In this document: in pieces, positions 3,099 through 64,000 of the stretch
How positions within the stretch are numbered: the stretch's first letter is position 1
How the letters are laid out: each line of letters starts with the position of its first letter
NCBI GenBank assembly: GCA_963930775.1
Contig: OZ005704.1
Span: 5,518,001-5,582,000 of the forward strand
Direction of reading: 5' to 3'
Source of the DNA: Cliona cf. orientalis
Lineage: Eukaryota; Porifera; Demospongiae; Clionaida; Clionaidae
Length of the DNA: 64,000 nt
Translations under genes and position numbers: made by a program
The notes under the pieces: model-generated
The model's database searches: none
Seen by the model: only the letters and a program-made list of their open reading frames with translations
Told to the model about the DNA's origin: nothing

Positions 3099-3416
<318 letters not shown>

Positions 3417-4033
3417 TTACTGCCTCCCTCAGACACCTCTCCTTCAAGCTGACCCTCCAGCTGCTGCACGGCTGACTTCAGCTGCACCTGTTCCAGGGCC
3501 TCCCACAATTCAGCATCCGTGTACTCATCAAAGGGGTCCAGATTGTAACGCATCGTCCCACTGAACAGCACGGGGTCCTGAGGAATGATGGACATCTTCT
3601 TGCGCAAATCATGAAGACCGATGGTCTTGGTGTCCACGCCGTCAATGGTGATTGCTCCACGTGGTTCTCCCAGTCTGTAGAGCACTGAGATGAGAGAGGA
3701 TTTGCCTGCACCCGTACGTCCAACAATGCCAATCTTCTCAGAGGGTTTGACGGAGAAGCAAAGGTCCTTGAGCACCAGAGGCAGCTCGGAGGAGTACTGG
3801 AATGCCACGTCCTCCATTGTGATGTTGCCCTTGTCTGGCCCTGGCAGTCTGGTGGTGGCTTGTTGTCGGGAGGAACTGTCTCCAGGGGAGCCTCTGGCTT
3901 CAGACGGCAGTAGTCAAGCACCCTCTCGGCAGATATCACCTGCACCAGATTGGAAATAGGTTCAATCCAGGGAAGTACAGTATACTAATTTCCCAATATC
4001 CCAGGCTAGGGATTTCCTTGTAGCATACGGATA

Positions 4034-13827: not shown

Positions 13828-14214
13828 AAAACTGATTCCATTGTGTAATTAAGTATTCACTAATTTTAATCAATCACGGAAGACTTCTTTTATTTCGCTA
13901 TATACCTAGTGTATGACTGAAGTTGTGTACATTTTCCACAGTATTATCAGGAGTAGATAAGGGATACTCCTGTTTACGTTATCATGCATGTATGACAATC
14001 TCGAGTCTCGTATATACCTGCAATCTTCTAAGTTCTATAGTTAGCTGGCCATTAGTCAGTCTATGGAACGTCTGCATCTCTAGATCTGTGCAGACGTCGA
14101 CCCCCATTGCCAACTGGAGAGAGAGAGAGAGAGAGATAGCTTGATGTTCTTGGATCTGAGTGTGGTATAGATCATGCTATCATGCGTATTGCTGGAGAGT
14201 GCAGCACACAGTAC
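13828..14214. other. CHP 3' flank, duplicated in front of ABCC copy 3
   Basis: This is non-coding sequence after the CHP stop. From about 13900 to 14210 it has a diverged direct copy at 30258-30513 (shared blocks include CTAGTGTATGACTGAAGTTG and CATTGCCAACTGGAGAGAGA). The shared sequence stops where the inverted-repeat element at 14215 begins, so it marks the duplication unit and the insertion point. Confidence 0.75.
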
Positions 14215-15084
14215 GTTTTTTATCTATTTTTCTTACCTGTTCTATCTAGGCCATCTTTCACTTCTAGGACTCCAAACAAAGACCAGAAGACAGAGCAACT
14301 CTTCTACTTTCAGCTCGTTCAAGTCCCATAACCCGGAGACATTCATGAGCTCCGCGGCGATCGCTTTTGTGCATGCTGTTTGCAAGCGCTCACAAAAGTG
14401 CCTCGCGCAAAAAGTGGTACGTTTTGGTTCCCTAGGATGGATTCCCATGATTCAAGTACCATTCAATAGCTCTTGTGTTGCTCTACAATATGAGACTGGA
14501 ACGAAGTTTTTCCATCGAGCGGTTCCAGAGTTACACGGCATCAAAAATCAGAAAATTTCTGTACAACCGCGTGGCATTTTCCATATCTTCTCAAGGTTTT
14601 ATCGAGTGTCTGACCTTCTGACCATCCAAGAATGAGCTATAGGCTTAGTAGCGCTCATTATGAAGCTCCACGTTTCTAGAGAGGAGGCATCTATGGCATT
14701 CCAACACTGACAAAATTGGCAAGCTCAAATATATGATCAAACTTGAGTCAGATATATGGTCAAACTCAAATATGTGGTCAAAATTGTTGCCTATATATGG
14801 TCAAAGCTAAATATATGGTCAAACGAAAGTTATGGTCATTTTGCCCATATATGGTCAAACACGCAGCAAATATATGGTCAAAATTCAAGAAGATCCCCTT
14901 ATAATATTATAATAGTCACGGATATGACGTATCTATTAGTTAATTGGACCGACGTGACGTCAACAGAATCACAGCCAGATAATCCGCGTTCGCAAATAAA
15001 ATTCGCGATCGCGCGCACAAACGACCCTTTACCCGCTATGTAGTCTCGTTCATGGACCCGCCCCCTCTGGGGACTTGGCCATCT

Positions 15085-18164: not shown

Positions 18165-19076
18165 CCCCATGTACGTACACAATTCATTAGGTGATTAGCA
18201 GCTATTGATGTCGGAGTAGGGGGCAGAAATGGAGTTCCACAGCCTAGAGAAGGGGCTGCCTAGGCCTCAGGCTGTAGCTATGTAATGAAGCTGACTTCTG
18301 AGGTGCTGAGAGCCTACTCCATTTACTGAGGTCCTCACTCGTACCGTCTCTGCAGCTGATCGAGTACTTTCCCTGTCAACCATAGCTTTTATGATGCCAG
18401 ATGGCATAGGAAACTGGTTATGAAAGCTTTAACAACCTTCAGCAAACCTTTAAGAAGACATTTGGTAGCTAGAAATCTTTGTAGTACCTAGATAGTGCTG
18501 TGTTAGCTATCATTAGTTTGTACGTATTCATTCAATATTTGTGTTGTGAAATATAAATTTTTATACCGTTTTTAACAGCGTGTAACTCTGGAACCGCTCG
18601 ATGGAAAAACTTCGTTCCAGTCTCATATTGTAGAGCAACACAAGAGCTATTGAATGGTACTTTAATCATGGGAATCCATCCTAGGGAACAAAAACGTACC
18701 ACTTTTTGCGCGAGGCACTTTTGTGAGCGCTTGCAAACAGCATGCACAAAAGCGATCGCCGCGGAGCTCATGAATGTCTCCGGGTTATGGGACTTGAACG
18801 AGCTGAAAGTAGAAGAGTTGCTCTGTCTTCTGGTCTTTGTTTGGAGTCCTAGAAGTGAAAGATGGCCTAGATAGAATAGGTAAGAAAAATAGATAAAAAA
18901 CGGCAAAAATTGCATGCACTGGAATGTGCCACCGGATGTACTTCCTGGATCTGCAACGTTTTTAACGACTGCACATGCTGCGCTCTGGTATTTAAATCAG
19001 GCCAGCCCCTCCAATATTCTTTGTAGGTAGGCGGGGCTCACCCGTTCGTAGACGTCAATCACTGAGTGAGAACGCG

Positions 19077-29826
<10,750 letters not shown>

Positions 29827-30624: not shown

Positions 30625-38529
<7,905 letters not shown>

Positions 38530-50822: not shown

Positions 50823-53800
50823 ATGGATCAGTCTGAAGCTGTGAAAGATTTTTTACGGAAGATCAAACTAAAATACAGGGAGAAACGACTCAATGATGAG
50901 GAGCAGTTGTTTCCATTAAAAAAACTGGTCAGGTTAGAGTTAGTGGAGGGGGAACAAAGACAGGGATATGCTGCTGGCCAAACAAGAGGTAGAGACAACC
51001 ATGCCATCAAGCGAACCCCTCTCACGGCTTATTCTGATATCTTGAAGGCTAAGGATGGTGACTCAGTTAGAAAGGTCCTTGTAGAAGGTGATGCTGGAAT
51101 AGGCAAGACCACTCTCTGTACAGCTCTCTCTAAGGACTGGGCAAATGGAGAGTTATTTCAAGAATTCAATATGCTTCTCTTATTATACCTTCGTCAGAAG
51201 AAAATAGCATCAGCTCGCTCACTCTTAGGTTTGCTTAAGGCTCTACACCCTAGTTCTGAAGTCTGTGAATCAATAGCTAAATATATTCAGGGTCAGGAGT
51301 ACAAGGTGCTTATCATTGCTGATGGCTGGGATGAGCTTAGTAAAGAGGATAGTAGCAAAAAGTTATTTTTATATGAGTTTTTGTTTGGTGAAACTTACTG
51401 TGTATCTGTCATAGTGACATCCAGACCTTATGCTTCTGTTTCACTTCGTCGCCTTCCATGCATTGATCGGTTAATTGAGGTGTGTGGGTTTAGTAAGGAT
51501 AATATTAAAAAATTCATTGACTGTAAGTTTGTCAAAGAAGCGGATAAGGGTAGTGGTCTCTTAGAGCAGTTGGAGGGTAACCCTCTAGTTAAGAGTATAT
51601 GTAGTGTTCCCCTCAACTGTGCCAGTGTCTGTCATTTATGGGACTGTCTTGGTGGAGTTCTACCCACCACCATGACAGGGTTCTACACAAAAATCATTTT
51701 GAATATTATTTGGCGTAATATGCGGAAAAAAGAAGAATATGAAGACTTTCACTCTTTGTCTCATTTTGATGCTTTACCCGAGCCCTTAAAGCAACCTTGG
51801 TCAAATTTGTGTGAGCTTGCTTTTCAAACACTTTCTGAGGACAAAATTGTCTTCTCTTATGAAGATTTAAGCAGAAAATTTCAAAATTTAACTACGGATA
51901 GTGCTGAGGTACGTTATTTTGGTTTGCTTCAGTCTGCTGAGCCTATATTGGTAGATGGTCATGGAGTATCGTTTCACTTTCTCCATCTGACCTTTCAGGA
52001 GTACCTTGCTGCCCTGCACATTGTGAGGCAGCCAACAGACAAACAGCTTCAGCTCTGTCAGTTGTATGCTGGGTCAAAGCGCTTTAGAATGGTCTGGAGA
52101 TTCTTCTTTGGTATCAAATTTGTCATCTATAAGCAAGCAGTTGACTTAAGGGCACTAACTGCACTCCTGAACAAGTACAAGTCAAGGTATAACTATGTGT
52201 TGCTATTTTGCCATTTTGCTCTCGAAGCCAATCAGAGAAATGTAAACACTCTAATTACATCAAAAATTATTGAAGATGCCTGTTATAATGTTTGGTTTCA
52301 AGCTCACACTGCTTTTGACTTTGCTGCTGTTATTCATGTTTTAGCAAATCTTCAGGATTGTAGTGATATTAATATAGGTCTCAGTAACTGTGGCCTGGGA
52401 GATGAACAAATTGCAGCATTAATGTCTGCTTTGGCTGGTGAACACAGAATGTTGCATGTAAAGAAGCTGGCCCTCAGTGCATGTAGTAACAAGTTAAGTG
52501 ACCAGAGCTTAGCTGATCTCTTTGATGGAGCATCACCTGCTTTTAATCAATCTCTGTGGTATGTCAATCTACACAATAATAAGTCTATTGGTCCAAAGAC
52601 TATTAATTCACTAACAAGGGTACTAGCTGAATCACTCTTAGTGGCTAGTAAGGCGTGTGGTTATGGTGATGATGATGATGATGATGACGATTATTACTAC
52701 GGGTATACATGTACATATCTTGTTCTAGATAACTGTTCTCTTGGAGTAGGTGGTATTAGTGCGCTGGCAGATGCACTATGTGCTGATAGACTAGCCTATC
52801 TACACCAATTGTCTCTTGACAGATCTCTTACTGATGATGCAAACACCAATGCTAAGTTGATACTTGCTTTAGGATCAGGTCACTGCAGTAGATTAAAACT
52901 ACTTAATCTCTCTAGAAACAACTTGGGTGTACCTGGTGGAAATGCCCTCGGAGAGATCTTGCCATGCCTCCATAGTGGACTATCCTTGATTCTGGAGGAG
53001 ACTATGCTTGGTGATGAGGGTATTTCTGCCTTAGTTCAAAATTTGAATGATGCAGTATTGTCTGAATTGACTTTGAGCAGCAATGATATCCAAGTTGCTG
53101 GTATATCACGTCTGGCTGAGAGTGTGTGTACAGGAAGTATTAAACTGTATGATTATACCTTCCATCTAGGAAATAACCCACTTGGATTAGGAGGAGTTAT
53201 ATCTGTGGTCAAAATACTTACAAGTGACCAGCCATACAGCATTCATCTATCTGGATGTCAGTTGACAACAGCTGGAGGGATTGCCACAAACCCTTACTTT
53301 CTTAATGCTGTAGATGTACAACGGTTCATTTGTAGTCAGCAGCTACAGACAACTCGTTCGGTTTATGAGTTTATGGTTGGTAACAATAACTTCAGTGGAG
53401 AGGGCATTCACATTCTAGCTGCCTTTATGTATGCTTGTCCATGTATGAAACATCTGTTTTGTAGTAGCTGTGGAATCACTTCCAATGATCTTGAACAGCT
53501 TTTTATTCTGCTTTCTGAGCTAAAGCTAAAGTTGCCGTATCTTAATGTATGGGGTCTCGATCATAATGACATTGATGATCGTGGAGTATCTGCCCTGATT
53601 CAACGCCTGTCAATGTTCCCAAAGTTGACATACATACGTTTAGTTGGCAACACCCGTGTCAGTCCTGGGATGTTGAAAACACTAGAGGAGAATCTGGATA
53701 CAGGAAAGGTACATTAAAAGAACTTGTGTGTATCATTAATTATGCCCGTAATCACTGTTTAGACTACAAATTAATGTATACCTTGTAGAATTCCTCTGGC

Positions 53801-56800
53801 TCAGACTCTGAAGGTGATTTGACAAGTGACAGTGACATGACTGAAAGGGAGGACCATGGAGAAGACTCTTCATCACACACGGAGGACAGCGATACAGTAT
53901 GTGCCGTCAGGGTCAATACTTGTACATCCCCTTATTTAATAGCACATTACCTCATATAGGAGGAGCAGTACAGAGCAGCTAAGGAGACTAGGATCACTAC
54001 AGTCACTCTGAAGGACATGGGAAACAGACCAGGATGTGGGTGAAATTAATTGTCATTACTGCTTGTGTACTTGTTATAGTGAGCTGTGGGATTAAATTTA
54101 GTGAACAGTAATGAAGCGCTTTCATCCAGCAAGAGAGTGAGGACTGTGGAGGATGAAGGAGTGGAGCAGCTGCAGCTGAATTTGGTTGAGGCAACCACAA
54201 TAGGTGAGACCAGTAGTGAACATGTGTTGTGGTGTACATGCACAAGTGCTGCTGTACCCTAATCCTAATCACATATAATATACCACATCACACACATGTG
54301 CAGTACAGTCATATTGATAATACATGTATCTTGCCACATAGAGCCACTGCTATGTATGTGGTTACCTGTTTATATATGTACCGTAGAATCCCGCGATTAC
54401 GCCCCCCCCTCGCGCATAAGCCCCCCCTCCATTTTTAGCTCAAGTTCCTGCATAGGTACTTTTGTCTCGCGTATAAGCCCCCCCCTCCCTGACTGTAAAA
54501 TGGAGCCCATAAATCAACAAAAACAGTAGCTACAGCTAGCAAACTAGCTATTTGTGTCATATTATGCCTTACTTTGTCGTTTTTCTCGAGTTTTGCCCAC
54601 CAAACAGCATGAGAAAGTACAGAGATCGCGCGCCCACGTGGCATACGACGGTCGGTAATGGTCGTCACACGGAAATGTCAGGATCCCACGTATAAGCCCC
54701 CTCCCCACTTTTGCCCAATCCTAGCATGCACAAAGGGGGGGCGTAATCGCGGGATTCTACGGTACATCCCATAGGAGCAGGAAGTGAGTCAAGTCAACAG
54801 GAAGTGGTCCATCTATCAACTAGCTCAACATCAACACAGTAAGTGTGTACTCATCCTATGCTAGTAGCTAATGTTCACCTGGATCACTTAGGGTTCAAAG
54901 GTTGGATCTGGTGTTGGCTTCTGATGGTGAAGTTTCAAAGCACCTTGGACAGATTGCTGATGACATGTGTGAGTGGGAGGGGCCAATTTCTGAGCAGCTG
55001 GGGCTGACAGAGGAGCAGTACAGAGCAGCTAAGGAGACTGGGATCAATCTGAAGGACATGGGAAACAGAACAAGATGTGGGTGAAATTGATAATATTTTC
55101 TTGTATATACTTGCTATTGAGGTGTAAATTACATTTAGTGAGCAGTATTGAAGAGCCTCCATCAAGCAAGAGAGTGAGGACTACGGAGGATGAAGGAGTG
55201 GAGCAGCTGCAGTCAGCAGTACTGCACTCAGCCTCAGCAGAGGCAACCACAATGGGTGAGGGTAATCTGGAAAAGGTACATTAAAAGAACTTGTGTGTAT
55301 CATTAATTATGCCCGTAATCACTGTTTAGACTACAAATTAATGTATATCTTGTAGAATTCCTCTGGCTCAGACATGATTGAAAGTGAGGACCATGGAGAA
55401 GACTCTTCATCACACACGGAGGACAGCGATACAGTATGTGTCATCAGGGTCATACTTGTGCATCCCCTTATTTAATAGCACATTACCTCATATAGGAGGA
55501 GCAGTACAGAGCAGCTAAGGAGACTGGGATCACTACAGTCACTCTGAAGGACATGGGAAACAGACCAGGATGTGGGTGAAATTAATTATCATTACTACTT
55601 GTGTACTTGTTATAGTGAGCTGTGGGATTAAATTTAGTGAGCAGTAGTGAAGAGCCTTCATCAAGCAAGAGAGTGAGGACTATGGAGGATGAAGAAATGG
55701 AGCAGCTGCAGCTGAATTTGGTGGAGGCAACCACAATAGGTGAGACCAGTAGTGAACATGTGTTGTGGTGTACATGCACAAGTGCTGCTGTACCCTAATC
55801 CTAATCACATATATACCATATCACACACGTGCAGTGCAGTCATATTGATAATACATGTATCTTGCCACATAGAGCCGCATATATGTATGTGGTTACTTGT
55901 GTATATATAATATACATCCCATAGGAGCAGGAAGTGAGTCAAGTCAACAGGAAGTGGTCCATCCATCAACTAGCTCAACATCAACACAGTAAGTGTGTAC
56001 TCATCCTATGCTAGTAGCTAATATTCACCTGGATCATTTAGGGTTCAAAGGTTGGATCTGGTGTTGGCTTCTGAACATGGTAGAGTTCCAAAACACCTTG
56101 GACAGATTACTGATGCCATGTGTGAGTGGGAGGGGCCAATTGCTGAACAACTGGGGCTGACAGAGGAACAGTACAGAGCAGCTAAGGAGACTGGGATCAA
56201 TCTGAAGGACATGGGAAACAGAACAAGATGTGGGTGAAATTGATAATATTTTCTTGTATATACTTGCTATTGAGGTGTAAATTACATTTAGTGAGCAGTA
56301 TTGAAGAGCCTCCATCAAGCAAGAGAGTGAGGACTACGGAGGATGAAGGAGTGGAGCAGCTGCAGTCAGCAGTACTGCACTCAGCCTCAGCAGAGGCAAC
56401 CACAATGGGTGAGGGTATCAGCAAGATGTACCGTAGGACCGGTTTTAATTACGTAGTGTAATAATTGTGTTATAGTCAAGTCTGGCCAAATTGCGAATCC
56501 AATAATATTGTGAACGACGACCCCGTACCGTAATGTAGTATACGTGCACGTTTGTGTTTGCGAATCTTTTAATTGCGAAACATAGAATAACTCGCAATTC
56601 GCAATTAATAGATACTCGCAATTAAAACCCAACCTACGGTATATAGTATGCTGTGTATGCACATGTGCAGCTAGAATTGTGTCTTGGCCCCAGAATATTT
56701 ATTATTTTGTCTCTTGTCTCACAGAAGCAGAGTGTGAGTCAGGAGATCAACTTAAAGTGGTTCATCTGTCAGCTAGCTCATCCCCTGCTACTGATTCATC

Positions 56801-58293
56801 AAGAGACTGTCATAGTGAGAAAGCTTCACTACACATGGCAGACAGTGATGAGGTACATGTTGTTTAAATTTAGACCAGATACGTAGTAGCTGAACAGTAA
56901 ATAGTGCAAGGGTCGTTTATAACGAAGTGGGTGGCGCTTTGATCCACCCGCACAGTAGGCTTTAAATAGCTATAGCCTGGCTATAATGATATGGCAATGT
57001 ATACCTTGTGTGTGTGCCTCAGCCATAAACATGACCCTTACAATTGCATTATTTATTATTCAGCTACTAAGGTTCGTTTTAATTATCAATCACAAACAAA
57101 ACCAGAGATTACGCACCCACGTGGCATTTGTCAAGGGTAATGATGGTTGTCACGATCCCACAAACAAGCCCCCCTCCTGTTTTGCCCAATGCAGGGGGGG
57201 GCATATTTGTGGGATTGTACAGTAATAATATTTTTATTAACTGTTACAGGAAGTGAAACTTGTAAGTGATTTCAAACTACAATCCTTTGAAGAAAATTCT
57301 GAGTTCCCATATGTATCAGCAACCACCCGTTGGGAGTTAGAGAATGTCCATGGAGTTGGTTTAAATGGAACAGGAGTTGTTATTGCTATTCTTGATACTG
57401 GCATAGACACAAAACATGATGCATTCAAGGATAAGCTTACTCAAATCAAGAGTCGTGACTTTCTTTCCGATAACAACTCTAACCCAGAATCCCATGGAAC
57501 CATGGCAGCCTTTGTGGCAGCTGGGAGGGGGTTTATAGCTAAGCACATACAAAAAGGAGGGGAAACCAAACCACTGCAGAAGCCCATTGATATTGCTAGT
57601 GGTGTTGCTCCAAGTGCAAAGCTTGTCATTTGTCGACTTGAAACCAACATAAAGTGTATTATAAAAGCTCTTAACTGGTTAATTGAAGAGAAGAAAAAGG
57701 AACAGAATGAGTGGGATGTTGATGTTGTTTCCATGTCATGGGGGGTAGTAAATGACGCACTGAATGAATCGGCCATACAAGACCGAAAGAAAGTACGGGA
57801 ACAGATTGAGGAATTGTCTCGACTTAAAGTGATTTTTATTGCTGCCGCTGGTAACTATGGCGACACTAAGCCAGAACTTTTTCCAGCCAGTCTCTCAAAT
57901 GTAATTTCTGTGGGTGCATTTGACCCATATAATAAGCCAGCAAATTTTACCCCATCATATGGTACTGATGTTTATGCACCTGGTACAAAAATTGTTTTTC
58001 CACTTGTACACAAAGGCATACATGATGGAATGGCGGTAACTCAAGGTACTTCATGTGCTACTCCAGCCATTGCTGGACTGGTTGCCTTGAAGATACAGTT
58101 CGAGAGAAATAAGCACGAATTTCTCAAAGGCATGAAGGATAATCTTCATGTTAAGAGCATCTTAGCGGGAGGAGAAAACATTCACTTCGATGACATGAAG
58201 AAAATGTTCAAGCGTATGCGGATGGATTGTGATAGACCACATGTTCTTTTACCTTACGAATATTACAGGGATAGATGTCATCTAAACATTTGA
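50823..58293 (+). CDS. NACHT-LRR receptor with death-fold-like hinge and C-terminal subtilisin protease
   Basis: Fifteen exons keep phase throughout and give 1,784 aa: 50823-53708, 53789-53896, 53960-54035, 54102-54203, 54775-54838, 54892-55076, 55139-55275, 55356-55433, 55496-55571, 55638-55739, 55925-55988, 56042-56229, 56292-56408, 56725-56852, 57250-58293. Exon 1 (962 aa) has Walker A GDAGIGKTT (residues 89-97), Walker B KVLIIADGWDEL (161-172), sensor VIVTSRP, the FHFLHLTFQEYLAAL helical segment, then ribonuclease-inhibitor-type LRRs. An acidic linker and two death-fold-like units follow (about 1079-1141 and 1293-1356; HLGQIADDMCEWEGPISEQL). The last exon is an S8 peptidase with Asp1486 (LDTGID), His1519 (SHGT), Asn1639 (AAGNYG) and Ser1705 (GTSCATPA). 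No signal peptide or I9 prodomain is seen, so it is probably intracellular. Inferred role: sensing through LRR/NACHT releases a protease effector. AATAAA follows at 58372. Confidence 0.82.
53709..55275 (+). repeat. Hinge module, first tandem unit
   Basis: This multi-exon block (acidic exon, short EEQYRAAKE exon, SSKRVRT exon, Ser/Gln exon, death-fold-like exon, second SSKRVRT exon) is repeated almost intact at 55276-56408, introns included. It ends NLEK|GTACATT, nearly the same junction as the end of the LRR exon (GK|GTACATT), so unit length and phase are preserved. This unit is longer because of the 54379 element. Confidence 0.85.
54379..54764. mobile_element. CCGTA-ended element, 'cgcgattacgccccc' type
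   Basis: It runs from TACCGTAGAATCCCGCGATT to the inverse AATCGCGGGATTCTACGGTA. It lies in an intron of the first hinge unit. The second unit has the empty site (about 55905-55918), so it inserted after the hinge duplication. A decayed relative lies at about 57100-57226 in the same gene. Confidence 0.85.
55276..56408 (+). repeat. Hinge module, second tandem unit
   Basis: Second copy of the block at 53709-55275. Differences: a shorter first acidic exon (26 against 36 codons), one extra codon in the death-fold-like exon (EHGRV against DGEV), and no 54379 element. It keeps phase and joins through 56725-56852 to the protease exon. Confidence 0.85.
56429..56641. mobile_element. CCGTA-ended element, 'ggttttaatt' type
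   Basis: It runs from TACCGTAGGACCGGTTTTAA to the inverse TTAAAACCCAACCTACGGTA. It is a close relative of 26265-26486 and lies in the intron after exon 13 of the receptor-protease gene. Confidence 0.8.
57100..57226. mobile_element. Decayed relative of the 54379 element
   Basis: The block 'gcacccacgtggcat', 'aagcccccctcctgttttgcccaatgc' and 'gtgggattgtac' matches the right half of the 54379 element, in the intron just before the protease exon. The left half is not recognisable. Confidence 0.6.
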
Positions 58294-58371
58294 GTAGCTA
58301 GTGAAACTATGTGTACCCATAAATTTCCATTGGTACTAATTTTGTATATCTGGCAAAAAAAAAACCTGCAG

Positions 58372-58377
58372 AATAAA
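58372..58377 (+). terminator. Polyadenylation signal of the receptor-protease gene
   Basis: AATAAA lies 79 bases after the stop, just past a run of A. It is the first such hexamer after the coding end. Confidence 0.55.
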
Positions 58378-58379
58378 AT

Positions 58380-61300
58380 TTTGTGTTTTAATTTCATTTG
58401 CTAGAGCTGCCGGACCACACTCATGCAGCTCACCGACTGTCGAGATAGCCTGCAGCACAGCATGGTGATCTATATCCAGGTTTATGAGCCTTTTAGTTTC
58501 TGTTGTGGTCGAAGGACTGATGCTAAGAGATCTCTGGGTAGGCCACTCAAAGATTTGTTTTTAATATTGGCAAAGCTACCAGCATTCACCACGTGCCAGT
58601 TGCGAGGTCAAGGTTTGCGCAAAAATGCTCAATTAATTTTGTTTTTACATGCATAACACTCATGCAAATATTATATAAAAATTAGCACCATACGAAAATA
58701 TCCTGCTATACATTATGTTATGTGAATGCTAGATGTGTGTTCCTATAGTGTGTTTGTGTGTCTCAATTTTATCAAGTGGCACTATTTTTAATTGTTTTGT
58801 AACAATTGTGGTCACTACACATATTGTCACCATTGTAATCTAGAGTTAATTTTTCCTCTTACATTCTATAAGCTGGCTTCAAAAGGTGACAGCGTGCTTC
58901 GACAGCTTCTAGCTACAACGCTTCATGAGTCACGTGACAGCCAAAATGGATCACATGATAATGGATTGTTGTCGTATAGCCATGACTACAAAGGATATCG
59001 AAACTCGAGAACTATGGTGTGTGCACATACGTGTATTAAGTGTATCTATTATGCTACGCTCGCTCGCTCTCTCTCTCTCTCTCCCCTCAGATCAAGCAAG
59101 TCAACTTCTGGGGAGAGAACTGGGTCCTCAGTGGCAGTGACTGTGGTCGTGTGTTCCTCTGAGACAAGTGGAGTGATAGGGTGGTCAACATGCTTGTAGC
59201 TGACTCTCATGTTGTCAGCCTCATCCAAATGCTTATGGTACAGTGATGTATAATGAAACATAGTACATGTGTATGCATGCACTTATGGCAATGCATAACT
59301 TATGAGGCTCAGAGCACTCACACATCATGCATGCATATAAACACCCCACCTATATATCTTCCTGCAGTCCTAGCCACCAGTGGTATAGACTATAACATCA
59401 AGCTTTGGGAGCTACTGGCAGCTGAACCAGGTTCACTGGGAAACCTACAGGAGGTCAGTCAACGTGGTATGATATGACATTGTGTATGGTACGGTATGTG
59501 TGTATGTGTGTTCCTTTAGTGTGTTTGTGTGTGTCAGTTATCATAGTGCATCACTTGAGTGTTTAGAATTTTTGTGGTCATTGTGGTCACTGTACATAAT
59601 TATTGTCACCATAATTTAATTATTCATCCCACATTGTGCATATATGCAAGAGTAAATAATAAGGAGGAGAAGAGAGTATTGAACGCACTATATACTCCGT
59701 ACAAGATGTTTTCGGAAAGTCACGTGCCAGGAATTCAAAAAAATGACCAATCAGAGCACTCGATTCAAATGGTACGTTGTGGGCGTGTCCTCGAGTGCAA
59801 GCTAACACAAGCACGATTTCGACCGAAAGCACGAGCAGATCACAATATAAAATGAGCATTTATGAAGAATCTAGCATAAAGCTCATGAAAAACGCCTCTA
59901 TTCTTCTCAGTTCCAAGAAAAATCAAGTGTTTAGCCCCTCGGGCTAGTCACGTGCGTACGGCTGCAAGTCACATTACTTGCCAAAAGCATATTATATACA
60001 CGGGGTATATAGCACGTTCGATACTCTCTTCCCCTCCTTATTGTTTACTCTTGATATATGTGAATGTTAAATGTGTGTGTGCTCCTTTTTATGTTTGTGT
60101 GTGTCAATTATCATAGTGCATCTTTTGAGCGTGGTACTTTTAAATTATTATTATTGTCACCATAAATCTAATTTTTTGTTCTCCCACATTCTTCTATTCC
60201 AAGCGGGCTCCAAAGGTGACAGTGTGCTTCTAGCTGAACTGGTTCATGAGTCACATGATAGCCAGAAGGGATCATGTGATGATGGATTGTTGTGTCGCCA
60301 CTACTACAAAGAAAGGACATCAATACATGTATTTGTTCATGAAAGTGTGTGTATCTGTTACGCTGCTCTCTCTCTCTCTCTCTCCCCTCCCCCTCCCTCC
60401 CTCCCTCTCCCCCTCAGATCAAGCAGGCCAACTTCTGGGGAGAGAACTGGGTCCTCAGTGGTGGGGAGAGAACTGGGTCCTCAGTGGCAGTGACTGTGGT
60501 CGTGTGTTCCTCTGAGACAAGTGGAGTGGTAGGGTGGTCAACATGCTCGTGGCTGACTCTCATGTCGTCAACTGTGTCCAGCCTCATCCAAATGCTTATG
60601 GTAATGACTGAAGTTCATTAATCCACATGTACATACGTATTATGTATACACAATGACATGTGCATACACCTTTCTCCCTGCAGTCCTAGCCACCAGTGGT
60701 ATAGACTATAACATCAAGCTTTGGGAGCCACTGGCAGCTGAACCATGTTCACTGGGAAACCTACAGGAGATCAGTCAACGTGGTATGATATGACACTGTG
60801 TATGAAGTATATAGCAGCAAGGTAGATGTGACTGGTCATTTTAGGTGACAAAGAATTTCATTCCTATGTGTGCAGTAGCAGAGGTTCCCTACACACTAGC
60901 CAAATCAGCCACTTGCTACTGTATCCTTCACTTGGCTACTAGTGCCTGGACTGAGTAGCCAATTTTTGCACTACTTTTCCTATACAACCTGCTTTTAATG
61001 TCAGTGCTGATCAGTAATATCTTTAGGAAATGGCTACAAGATTTAGTAAGCTTCAGGAACCCCTGAGTAGCCTTCTTCCCAGGCCTGTTTCCAGCTTTTA
61101 ATGTAACTCACTGAAAAGCTGGGCCTGAGGATGAGGCTAGCTGTACAATATACATCACTGTATAAGAGCTAACCATCCCTCCCCAGTAGTCTGTCACTCC
61201 ATGCATATAATATTATAATATTGAGCGTGAATACTTTAGAGTGAGCTATATATACACCTCACAGGTTGTTGATCGTAATGAGGTTATGCTTGAGGAGAGT

Positions 61301-61440
61301 CATAACACTATCACCGTACCCTCCATGTTGTCTTCAGGATACTGGCTTACCTACACAGGAGGAGGAGAACTGAGTCATCCACTTCATAATATTAATTTAA
61401 TATTTACTAAACATGTAACAGTGCAATAAGGCCAAGACCA
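58380..61440 (+). pseudogene. Duplicated fragments of a DCAF6-like WD40 gene
   Basis: Two consecutive copies of the same exon set are present. Exon pairs 59091-59236 and 60418-60600 read IKQVNFWGENWVLSGSDCGRVFL, stop, DKWSG, then HVV..VQPHPNAYV. Pairs 59368-59466 and 60684-60782 read LATSGIDYNIKLWEPLAAEP. A single further exon (about 61266) reads VVDRNEVMLEESHNTITVP. This is the C-terminal WD40 region of DCAF6 (NRIP), a CUL4-DDB1 substrate adaptor. Both copies carry TGA where family members have Trp (VFLWDKW). Copy B also has a tandem duplication of about 24 bases in the exon. An exon upstream of each (58872 and 60205; GDSVL...LVHESHDSQKGS) is also shared. Neither copy can encode a full propeller. 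Confidence 0.7.
59649..60055. mobile_element. Inverted-repeat element between the two DCAF6-like fragments
   Basis: The left end AGAGTAAATAATAAGGAGGAG...GAGAGTATTGAACG is matched by its inverse at 60013-60055, about 44 bases. The interior of about 320 bases carries a CG-richer segment without a recognised product. Confidence 0.75.
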
Positions 61441-61649
61441 AGAGGAGGAATCAGATTGATAGAAACACAAGAAAATCATGATGTTGTGTTAATAATTCCC
61501 GTATCATATGCATGCCACTGTTATTCATCAATATATAATATTATGTTTATTGTATATAATTATGTATATATATCCCCATAATTATGGTATGATTTCATGC
61601 TGCTACTACTGTACTGTGTGTGTAAGCATTGTGGGTAAATGAGAAGATC

Positions 61650-61980
61650 TAGATGTGGATGAAATATGTAGCAATGCAAAGCCTTTTGGTTGCTTCTATG
61701 TTATGACTAGACGACCTTTACCAACTTTTCATAAGATAGATGGCAACACCCACCTAGTCTCGAGCTCCTGTCTCCACAACGCTCCGATCGGCATTCGGTG
61801 TGCTTCAGCCTGTCAAGTGAGTTTAATGCTTGGATATCATACCACGAACTATCAAGCTTTATTGTTGGTTCTCAACTTCCACAGAAAGAAAACTTAACGC
61901 AGGTCCATTCAGCTAGGCCGCTCTACGTGATCACACCACTTCAAACAAAGCCCGGAGCTGAGCCAAATTTTGATGTTTGA
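61650..61980 (+). other. Unidentified open segment upstream of the second NACHT-LRR gene
   Basis: An open frame from 61655 (MDEICSNAKPFGCFYVMTRR...) passes near 61800 into a second frame (SSEFNAWISYHELSSFIVGS...) that ends TGA 61978-61980. A shift or a very short intron would be needed to join them. No homologue is recognised, and no counterpart was seen before the first NACHT-LRR gene. It could be a 5' exon, a small gene or a relic. Confidence 0.3.
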
Positions 61981-62057
61981 TTAACTTTCTTAGTACGATT
62001 TAACTGCTTTGAACATAAGGATTGTTGCAGTGGTAGTTTATTAATACATGTACCAGT

Positions 62058-64000
62058 ATGTCTATGGAGCAGTCTGAAGCTGTAGAGAAGTTTGTAGAGA
62101 GGATCAAGCAAAAGTACACTGAGAGACGGCTGAACTGTGAGAAACAGTGGCCTCCGTGTAAATCAGAAAAATTGGTCAGGCTAGAACTAGTTGAAAGGGG
62201 AAAAAGAGAGGGTTACTCTGCCGGCCAAACAAGGGGGAGAGATAATGAGACTGTCAAGCGAAGCCCTTTAGCTTATTCAGATATCTTGAAGGCTAAGGAT
62301 GGTAAGAGGACAGTGAGAAAGGTCCTTGTAGAAGGTGATGCTGGAATAGGCAAGACCACTCTCTGTACAGCTCTCTCTGAGGACTGGGGAGACAAATTAA
62401 TATTCAGTGAAGAATTCGATATTCTACTCTTATTGCATCTTCGCCGGAAGCGAATAGCTTCAGCTGGCTCTCTCCTAGATTTGCTTAGGCTTCTACACTC
62501 TAGTTCTGAAATCTGTGAGTTAGTGGCTAAATATATTGAGAATCAGAATGAAGGCAAGGTGCTTATCATTGCTGATGGCTGGGATGAGCTTAGTGCTGAG
62601 GATCGTAGTGAAGGGTCATTTTTATATGATCTCCTGTTTGGTGAGTGTTACTCACTGTCTGTTATAGTGACATCCAGGCCTTATGTCTCTGCTCCGCTTC
62701 ACAAATGTCGATGCATCGATCGATTCGTCGAAGTTCATGGCTTTAGTAAGGATAACATCAAAGAGTTCATCCAGTGTGAGCTTGCCAGTGATGTGGATAA
62801 GGGTAGTGGTCTCTTAGAGCAATTGGAGGGTAACCCACTAATTGAGAGTGTGTGTAGTGTTCCCCTCAACTGTGCCATTATCTGTCATTTGTGGCCCCAT
62901 TTTGAGGGAGCTCTTCCCACCACCATGTCAGAGCTCTACACAAAGATCATTTTGAATGTCATTTTGCGTAATATAATATGCAAAAAACCTGAATATGAAA
63001 ATATTTCTGCTTTGTCTCATTTTGATGCTTTGCCAGATAGCTTGCAGCAACCATGGTCACTTCTGTGTGAGATAGCATTTCAAACACTATCAAAAGATAG
63101 AATTGTCTTTTCGTATGAAGACTTAAACATAAAATTTCCAAATTTATCCTCGGGTAGTGAAGTATTTAGCTTTGGTTTGCTTCAGTCTGCTGAATCTATT
63201 TTGGTAGATGGTCATGGAGTATCATTTCATTTTCTCCATCTGACCTTTCAGGAGTACCTTGCTGCCCTGTACATTGTGAGGCAGCCAACAGACAAACAGC
63301 TTCAGCTCTGTCAGTCGTATGCTGGGTCAGTGCGCTTTGATATGGTCTGGAGATTCTTCTTTGGTATCAAATTTGTCATCTGTAAGCAAGCAGTTGACTT
63401 AAGGGTACTAACTGCATTCCTGAACAAGTACAGGTCAAGGCATCACTATGAGCTGCTATTTTGCCATTTTACTCTCGAAGCCAATCAGAGTAATGTAAAC
63501 ACTCTAATTGCGTCAAAAATTATTAGTTATGATGTTAAGTTTCTTGCTCGCACTGCTTTTGACTCTGCTGCTGTTATTCATGTTTTAGCAAATCTTCGGA
63601 ATTGTAGTGATATTAATATGGATCTCAGTAACTGTGGCCTGGGAGATAAACAAATTGCAGCATTAACGTCTGCTTTGGCTGATGAACACAGAATGTTGCA
63701 TGTAAAGAGCCTGACCCTCAGTGCATGTAGTAATAAGTTAAGTGACCAGAACTTAGCTGATCTCTTTGATGGAGCATCACCTGCTTTTAATCAATCTCTG
63801 TGGTATGTCGATCTATGCAAGAATAATAATACTATTGGTCCAAAAACTATTAATTCACTAACAAGGGTACTAGCTGAATCACTCTTAGTGGCTAGTGAAT
63901 TAGATGATTATGATGAATGGGAGTTCGAAGAGTATACAAGTCTTAATCTAGCTGAAACTTCTCTTGGAGTAGATGGTGTTAGAGCACTAGCAGATGCACT
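62058..64000 (+). CDS. Second NACHT-LRR receptor gene, paralogue of 50823 (3' end outside window)
   Basis: ATG 62058 (MSMEQSEAVEKFVERIKQKY) opens a frame of 647 codons with no stop before the window end. It is collinear with exon 1 of the first gene, with high identity. It has Walker A GDAGIGKTT, Walker B GKVLIIADGWDEL, VIVTSRP, FHFLHLTFQEYLAAL, then LRRs (LSNCGLGDKQIAAL). Starting at the second ATG (62064) would match the first gene's start. In the LRR region the first gene's Asp-run (about 52670) is replaced by ELDDYDEWEFEEY. Whether it also ends in hinge and protease exons cannot be seen. Intact as far as it goes. Confidence 0.9.
   Translation, partial: MSMEQSEAVEKFVERIKQKYTERRLNCEKQWPPCKSEKLVRLELVERGKREGYSAGQTRGRDNETVKRSPLAYSDILKAKDGKRTVRKVLVEGDAGIGKTTLCTALSEDWGDKLIFSEEFDILLLLHLRRKRIASAGSLLDLLRLLHSSSEICELVAKYIENQNEGKVLIIADGWDELSAEDRSEGSFLYDLLFGECYSLSVIVTSRPYVSAPLHKCRCIDRFVEVHGFSKDNIKEFIQCELASDVDKGSGLLEQLEGNPLIESVCSVPLNCAIICHLWPHFEGALPTTMSELYTKIILNVILRNIICKKPEYENISALSHFDALPDSLQQPWSLLCEIAFQTLSKDRIVFSYEDLNIKFPNLSSGSEVFSFGLLQSAESILVDGHGVSFHFLHLTFQEYLAALYIVRQPTDKQLQLCQSYAGSVRFDMVWRFFFGIKFVICKQAVDLRVLTAFLNKYRSRHHYELLFCHFTLEANQSNVNTLIASKIISYDVKFLARTAFDSAAVIHVLANLRNCSDINMDLSNCGLGDKQIAALTSALADEHRMLHVKSLTLSACSNKLSDQNLADLFDGASPAFNQSLWYVDLCKNNNTIGPKTINSLTRVLAESLLVASELDDYDEWEFEEYTSLNLAETSLGVDGVRALADA

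Follow-up and report, generated by a model that had tools for sequence, protein, structure and literature searches.

A predicted sponge NLR with a C-terminal subtilisin-type protease in Cliona cf. orientalis

Animal NOD-like receptors (NLRs) are thought to signal mainly via N-terminal adaptors that recruit caspases. NACHT proteins of animals assemble into toroidal complexes, through which effectors are deployed (PMC8195603). In fungi, a subset of the proteins that control gasdermins are NLR sensors carrying an S8 protease, and HET-Q2, which is subtilisin-like, probably cleaves the gasdermin HET-Q1 (PMC12881547); NLRs with an S8 domain are also described for fungi in PMC4986451. Here, we analysed a stretch of 64,000 nucleotides from the sponge Cliona cf. 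orientalis (contig OZ005704.1, positions 5,518,001 to 5,582,000; hereafter the window) and focus on a locus at its positions 50823-58293, in which an exon encoding a NACHT domain and leucine-rich repeats (LRRs) is followed by an exon encoding an S8, that is subtilisin-type, peptidase. With a probability of roughly 0.6, both exons are spliced into one protein whose ligand-driven assembly would release or cluster the protease to cut cellular targets.

Gene model and domains of the locus

An independent rebuild of the locus yielded 15 exons and 14 introns, every intron being GT-AG, with continuous phases, no internal stop and a predicted product of 1,780 residues (Table 1). A first-pass annotation, made from the sequence alone, had likewise described 15 exons in continuous splice phase, albeit with a product of 1,784 residues. 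Direct junction of exons 1 and 15, with phase 0 at the exon-1 donor as well as at the exon-15 acceptor, gives 1,309 open residues free of internal stops. Since both exons are readable when joined directly, the fusion is independent of how the intervening hinge (exons 2-13) is modelled, and model and junction checks alike uphold the earlier claim of a NACHT-LRR exon phase-compatible with a C-terminal S8 exon. Joining exon 1 to exon 14, with the hinge skipped, was rejected because it is out of frame.

Because a TAA lies two codons past the exon-1 donor, the joining of exon 1 to the protease depends on splicing. Exon 15 in turn needs an upstream exon and cannot provide a whole protease alone, since its earliest in-frame ATG encodes residue 85, beyond the catalytic Asp49 and His82 (exon numbering). 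At the start of exon 15, LQE is present in all five S8 relatives of the window's clade that reach upstream (P0008, P0009, P0010, P0013 and P0019; matching proteins are cited by row number throughout), which fits the acceptor cag/GAA, and S8 rows of other clades (P0015, P0017, P0018) differ at this site. The donor of exon 14 reads GAG/gtacat, its first six intron bases being identical to those after exon 1. In 35 of 37 NACHT rows (P0058-P0094, including the window's), the residue just before a Val that follows the last LRR has a codon able to end in G, a crude test for a G/GT donor made on proteins rather than DNA. The region 53709-57249 contains 269 open 75-nucleotide stretches after AG as compared to 159 (standard deviation 21) in crude shuffles, a count that is inflated by the region's internal repeats. 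The sole plus-strand AATAAA within 53709-62063 is that following the protease stop (Table 1). Taken together, the predicted gene structure makes it likely that splicing unites the NACHT-LRR exon and the downstream S8 exon in one protein in vivo.

Pfam analysis of the receptor part revealed NACHT (PF05729, E 2.3e-20, residues 84-236), with the Walker A motif GDAGIGKT at residue 89 of exon 1, and NOD2_WH (E 6e-5 in the predicted protein). LRR_6 reaches E 5.4e-4 in the window protein, 20.2 bits versus a cut-off of 23.4, and an LRR match above the cut-off is found in the close copies P0059 and P0060. An AlphaFold2 model of exon 1 (mean predicted local distance difference test score, 81.4; predicted TM-score, 0.70) displays alternating strand-helix repeats and retrieved NOD2, NLRP14 and NLRP3 in Foldseek (E 2.4e-27 to 1.4e-25, TM-scores ~0.4-0.5); the nearest solved sequences are 5irl, NOD2 by its title, and NLRP3. 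With a NACHT domain bearing Walker A and a C-terminal LRR array, the window receptor is an NLR. In keeping with the short N-terminus before NACHT described in the first-pass annotation, no N-terminal recruiter of the kind used by inflammasome-type animal NLRs was found in exon 1: with Pfam matches taken up to E 1, CARD, PYD, Death and DED are absent for exon 1, for the hinge and for exon 15, as is BIR for exon 1, and an upstream exon might still encode one. The NACHT exon has no match among the PADLOC models; a chance-level match to DS8_antiphage (E 7.9e-4, 17 of 790 bits) was not used.

Exon 15 matches Peptidase_S8 (PF00082, E 4.1e-33, Pfam on the predicted protein), and its S8 domain is of the subtilisin fold. 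The catalytic triad plus the oxyanion Asn are present in the motifs DTGID, SHGTM, AGNYG and GTSCATP, corresponding to Asp1482, His1515, Asn1635 and Ser1701 of the rebuilt model. The first-pass annotation had recognised all four motifs, each with a residue number higher by 4, and its further statements that an I9 prodomain and a signal peptide are missing also held: the Pfam matches to the three parts, again taken up to E 1, do not include I9, and a simple hydropathy test gives no sign of a signal peptide or membrane helix (no 19-residue stretch with a mean of 1.6 or more; no dedicated predictor was run). The best matches of the S8 domain in NCBIfam and PADLOC, to a mycosin model of the type VII secretion system (E 1.5e-25, far under the family cut-off) and to a generic subtilase model (E 7.3e-12), were not used for classification.

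Related proteins on other contigs

When the whole predicted protein was used as query and proteins 0.55-1.75 times as long were scored for their similarity to its S8 part, 18 matches were obtained. The best two, P0040 (1507 residues, 882,717-base contig) and P0041 (1443 residues, 156,265-base contig), carry NACHT, LRR and S8 in one uninterrupted frame, with NACHT and S8 above the Pfam cut-offs and LRR above or near them, and NACHT is not listed in the remaining 16. Absence of such a fusion from any other genome had been named in the first-pass annotation as the outcome that would speak decisively against it; these two proteins carry one. P0040 and P0041 are 41% identical across nearly their full extent, and P0040 shares 24% identity with the window protein in the NACHT region and 35% in S8. 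The N-terminus of P0040 matches Death in Pfam at E 0.17, under the cut-off, and we do not claim such a domain for it.

The S8 exon has 39 matches at E 1e-3 or better. Its own row, P0001, is one of them, and a copy with 89% identity, P0002, shares the 302,673-base contig with it. Of 7,997 candidates scored with the NACHT exon, 1,064 match at E 1e-20 or better, and 120 of these are the listed NACHT matches considered below. Assigning rows to a common contig only by equal contig size in bases, we find among the matches listed two NACHT (including P0060) and two S8 on the 302,673-base contig, seven NACHT and two S8 on a contig of 599,531 bases, and one of each on a contig of 42,121 bases. All four catalytic motifs are kept in 23 of 32 S8 rows, the window's included; six rows are truncated calls (P0011, P0012, P0013, P0014, P0019, P0026) and three are substituted, at His and Ser in P0008, at Asn in P0018 and at Asp, replaced by Glu, in P0025. 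Relatives at 50-60% identity have intact motifs in most complete rows. P0008, a relative from the window clade, is a possible pseudo-protease.

In a tree of S8 domains (39 rows, P0013 left out), the window clade forms one group (100/100), and P0040 and P0041 fall into another together with P0030 and P0035 (100/99). In a NACHT tree of 29 rows made by a quick method, P0040 and P0041 lie ~5 changes per site from the window's family on very long branches. With S8 in separate clades and NACHT far apart, shared ancestry of the window fusion and the P0040/P0041 fusions is unsupported. The simplest reading would be repeated joining of S8 domains from one broad family to NLRs, or movement of such domains from one NLR to another, which the long branches keep short of proof. 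Searches with two to six short patterns each gave no confirmed relative of the S8 exon in prokaryote genomes or viral contigs, of P0040 in viral contigs or of the P0040/P0041 alignment in prokaryote genomes, which argues weakly against a bacterial source.

One protein or other explanations

In the reading that we favour, a ligand would trigger ring assembly of the NACHT-LRR part of a presumably cytosolic protein. This oligomerisation would cluster or free the C-terminal subtilisin-type protease, which may then cut its own cellular targets. By analogy with the fungal S8-NLRs controlling gasdermins, the outcome could be cell death or an immune response. The protease, rather than an N-terminal adaptor, would provide the output, as it is the only recognisable one, no recognisable domain preceding NACHT in the window protein. 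The first-pass annotation had likewise proposed a receptor whose output is its own protease; phase-compatible domain exons, catalytic motifs and the other fusions back this proposal in part, but a common mechanism cannot be assumed, because the hinge copies diverge as expected of neutral sequence and a hydrophobic segment precedes the protease in P0040 and P0041.

Several observations weigh against a single protein with protease output. Foldseek TM-scores of the exon-1 model against whole NLRs are low, about 0.3-0.5. The hydrophobic segment of P0040 and P0041 (mean 2.09 and 2.85, respectively), which follows the LRRs, lies ahead of S8 and is of a type missing from the window protein, could place the protease across a membrane; if it is membrane-spanning, the protease would act elsewhere than that of the window protein. 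Six of the nine long contigs of the closest NACHT relatives (P0058-P0094) lack S8 among the matches listed (355,672; 489,361; 509,412; 96,024; 120,653 and 1,087,131 bases). Further points would suit two neighbouring genes acting in trans, an NLR ending unspliced at 53717 and an S8 gene starting within the hinge. That is, exon 1 left unspliced stops two codons beyond its donor, and the hinge region contains five ATTAAA, one of them at 53713, at the exon-1 donor, as well as 13 in-frame Met codons as possible starts for a separate protease gene. Moreover, P0023 is an S8 protein with a Death-like N-terminus (Death E 0.0054, under the cut-off) and no NACHT match, and for half of the six long contigs that carry S8 of the window clade (330,492; 645,012 and 234,741 bases), the 120 matches listed include no NACHT. 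However, the hinge is devoid of AATAAA, the residue preceding Val is compatible with G/GT in nearly all NACHT rows by the crude protein test, and P0040 and P0041 unite all three domains in a single frame; we consider two genes unlikely.

The hinge, of which copy 1 is acidic, Ser/Glu-rich and without a Pfam domain above the cut-off, likewise counts on this side. Its two copies differ about equally in exons (26/632) and introns (20/514), with a ratio of nonsynonymous to synonymous substitution rates (dN/dS) of 0.87; purifying selection, sought between the two copies, was not found. Therefore, selection provides no proof that the hinge is translated. The indels between the copies in exons are 30 and 3 nucleotides long, multiples of three. 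In one comparison, the hinge matched the Death-like part of P0023 over 33 residues (36%, E 7e-4), and despite this resemblance it has no Pfam match to Death. The neutral-like and recently duplicated hinge, the transposon-like insert in intron 4, which has no counterpart in copy 2, and the relative P0008 without His and Ser could also point to a decaying or non-functional fusion without protease output, in which a fast-evolving cluster of NLRs captured an exon by chance. Both large exons being open with all motifs present, most complete S8 relatives at 50-60% identity keeping the motifs, and NACHT-LRR-S8 occurring in a second, distant lineage make such decay very improbable.

The FIIND module of NLRP1 and CARD8 self-cleaves, and S8 enzymes commonly self-process. 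By analogy, the protease might cut its own hinge in cis or trans, the freed fragment being the signal, and the hinge that separates the two parts, being long, acidic and quick to change, would be in keeping with such self-processing. However, no cut site was identified, and P0040 has only ~100 residues from its last LRR match to S8, so that we rate self-processing as improbable, on a par with two separate genes.

Neighbouring features and comparison with known systems

The window ends within a second, tandem NACHT-LRR exon (Table 1), whose full open reading frame is P0060. Between exon 1 and this copy, dN/dS is 0.54 over 638 codons with no stop, being 0.44 in the first 500 aligned codons and 1.6 in the following 138; the latter value, obtained near the LRRs from few sites, hints at diversifying selection. 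Between the protease exon and this next NLR, a WD40-like exon occurs in two 72% identical stretches (58881-59480 and 60226-60795). Elsewhere in the window, an ABC transporter-like exon block is present in three copies of 95-96% identity (3307-3982, 28748-29416 and 37443-38107), one of them inverted; the WD40 and ABC transporter labels are readings of the translations, with no family search. An open reading frame is repeated on opposite strands at 14171-14635 and 18579-18902, with 99% identity over 324 bases.

Table 1. Positions in the window of the elements of the NACHT-LRR-S8 locus and of the tandem receptor exon
Feature	Position	Strand	Basis or remark
Exon 1: NACHT, winged helix, helical domain, LRRs	50823..53708	+	
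TAA reached without splicing of exon 1	53715..53717	+	sequence; frame ends GKVH, then stop
Hinge copy 1, exons 2-7	53789..55275	+	exon model, Pfam
Exons of hinge copy 1	53789-53896, 53960-54039, 54109-54203, 54775-54838, 54892-55080, 55146-55275	+	
Transposon-like insert, intron 4	54376..54767	.	42-nucleotide terminal inverted repeats (93%)
Hinge copy 2, exons 8-13	55356..56408	+	tandem duplicate of copy 1
Exons of hinge copy 2	55356-55433, 55496-55575, 55645-55739, 55925-55988, 56042-56233, 56299-56408	+	
Exon 14, linker directly before protease	56725..56852	+	exon model
Exon 15, S8 (subtilisin-type) peptidase	57250..58293	+	stop 58291-58293
AATAAA	58372..58377	+	79 nucleotides past last base of protease stop
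Second NACHT-LRR exon, tandem, cut by window end	62064..63998	+	72% identical; Pfam NACHT E 3.6e-18

Among sponge receptors, the NLRs of Dysidea avara resemble the window protein in their NACHT-LRR architecture, the lack of a recognised N-terminal effector and their tandem clusters, whereas additional domains, caspase and ubiquitin among them, are named for them in a figure legend; the terms peptidase and protease are absent from the main text, and the paper mentions putative membrane-bound NLRs in sponges (PMC12909245). The fungal S8-NLRs share with the window protein an NLR-type receptor and an S8 peptidase in one protein and, as proposed here, the protease as output. In contrast to their N-terminal S8 module, accompanied by WD40, ANK or TPR as superstructure-forming repeats (PMC12881547, PMC4986451), that of the window protein is C-terminal, following the LRRs in the last exon. 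Searches of open-licence literature showed no animal NACHT-S8 protein among the papers listed, in which the fungal S8-NLRs do appear, in agreement with the first-pass annotation, which had considered such a switch not described in animals. Thus, an NLR-S8 fusion is known from fungi, and the predicted C-terminal S8 after LRRs appears to be without reported animal precedent in what we found.

With receptors of the NLRP3, NOD2 and NLRC4 type, the window protein has NACHT, winged helix, helical domain and LRR in common, as seen in sequence and Foldseek matches, but it differs in that no N-terminal recruiter was found and in that the predicted chain itself includes a protease, in place of a caspase that has to be recruited. 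P0023 has a related S8 domain and differs in having no NACHT or LRR match. IetAS is an anti-phage pair of an ATPase and a subtilase encoded by separate genes; it resembles the window protein in coupling an NTPase to a subtilase, and the window S8 matches the PADLOC model of IetS weakly (E 4.3e-5). More broadly, and tentatively, a danger switch made of one protein, an NLR with a C-terminal subtilisin executioner by-passing adaptors and caspases, may have arisen at least twice in early animals, and many sponge NLRs without a recognised effector may likewise hide effectors in downstream exons. The exons downstream of the NACHT-LRR exon could therefore be the place to seek the function of sponge NLRX receptors that have no recognised effector. 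If the window receptor indeed acts through its own protease, its output would be self-contained and convergent with that of the fungal S8-NLRs.

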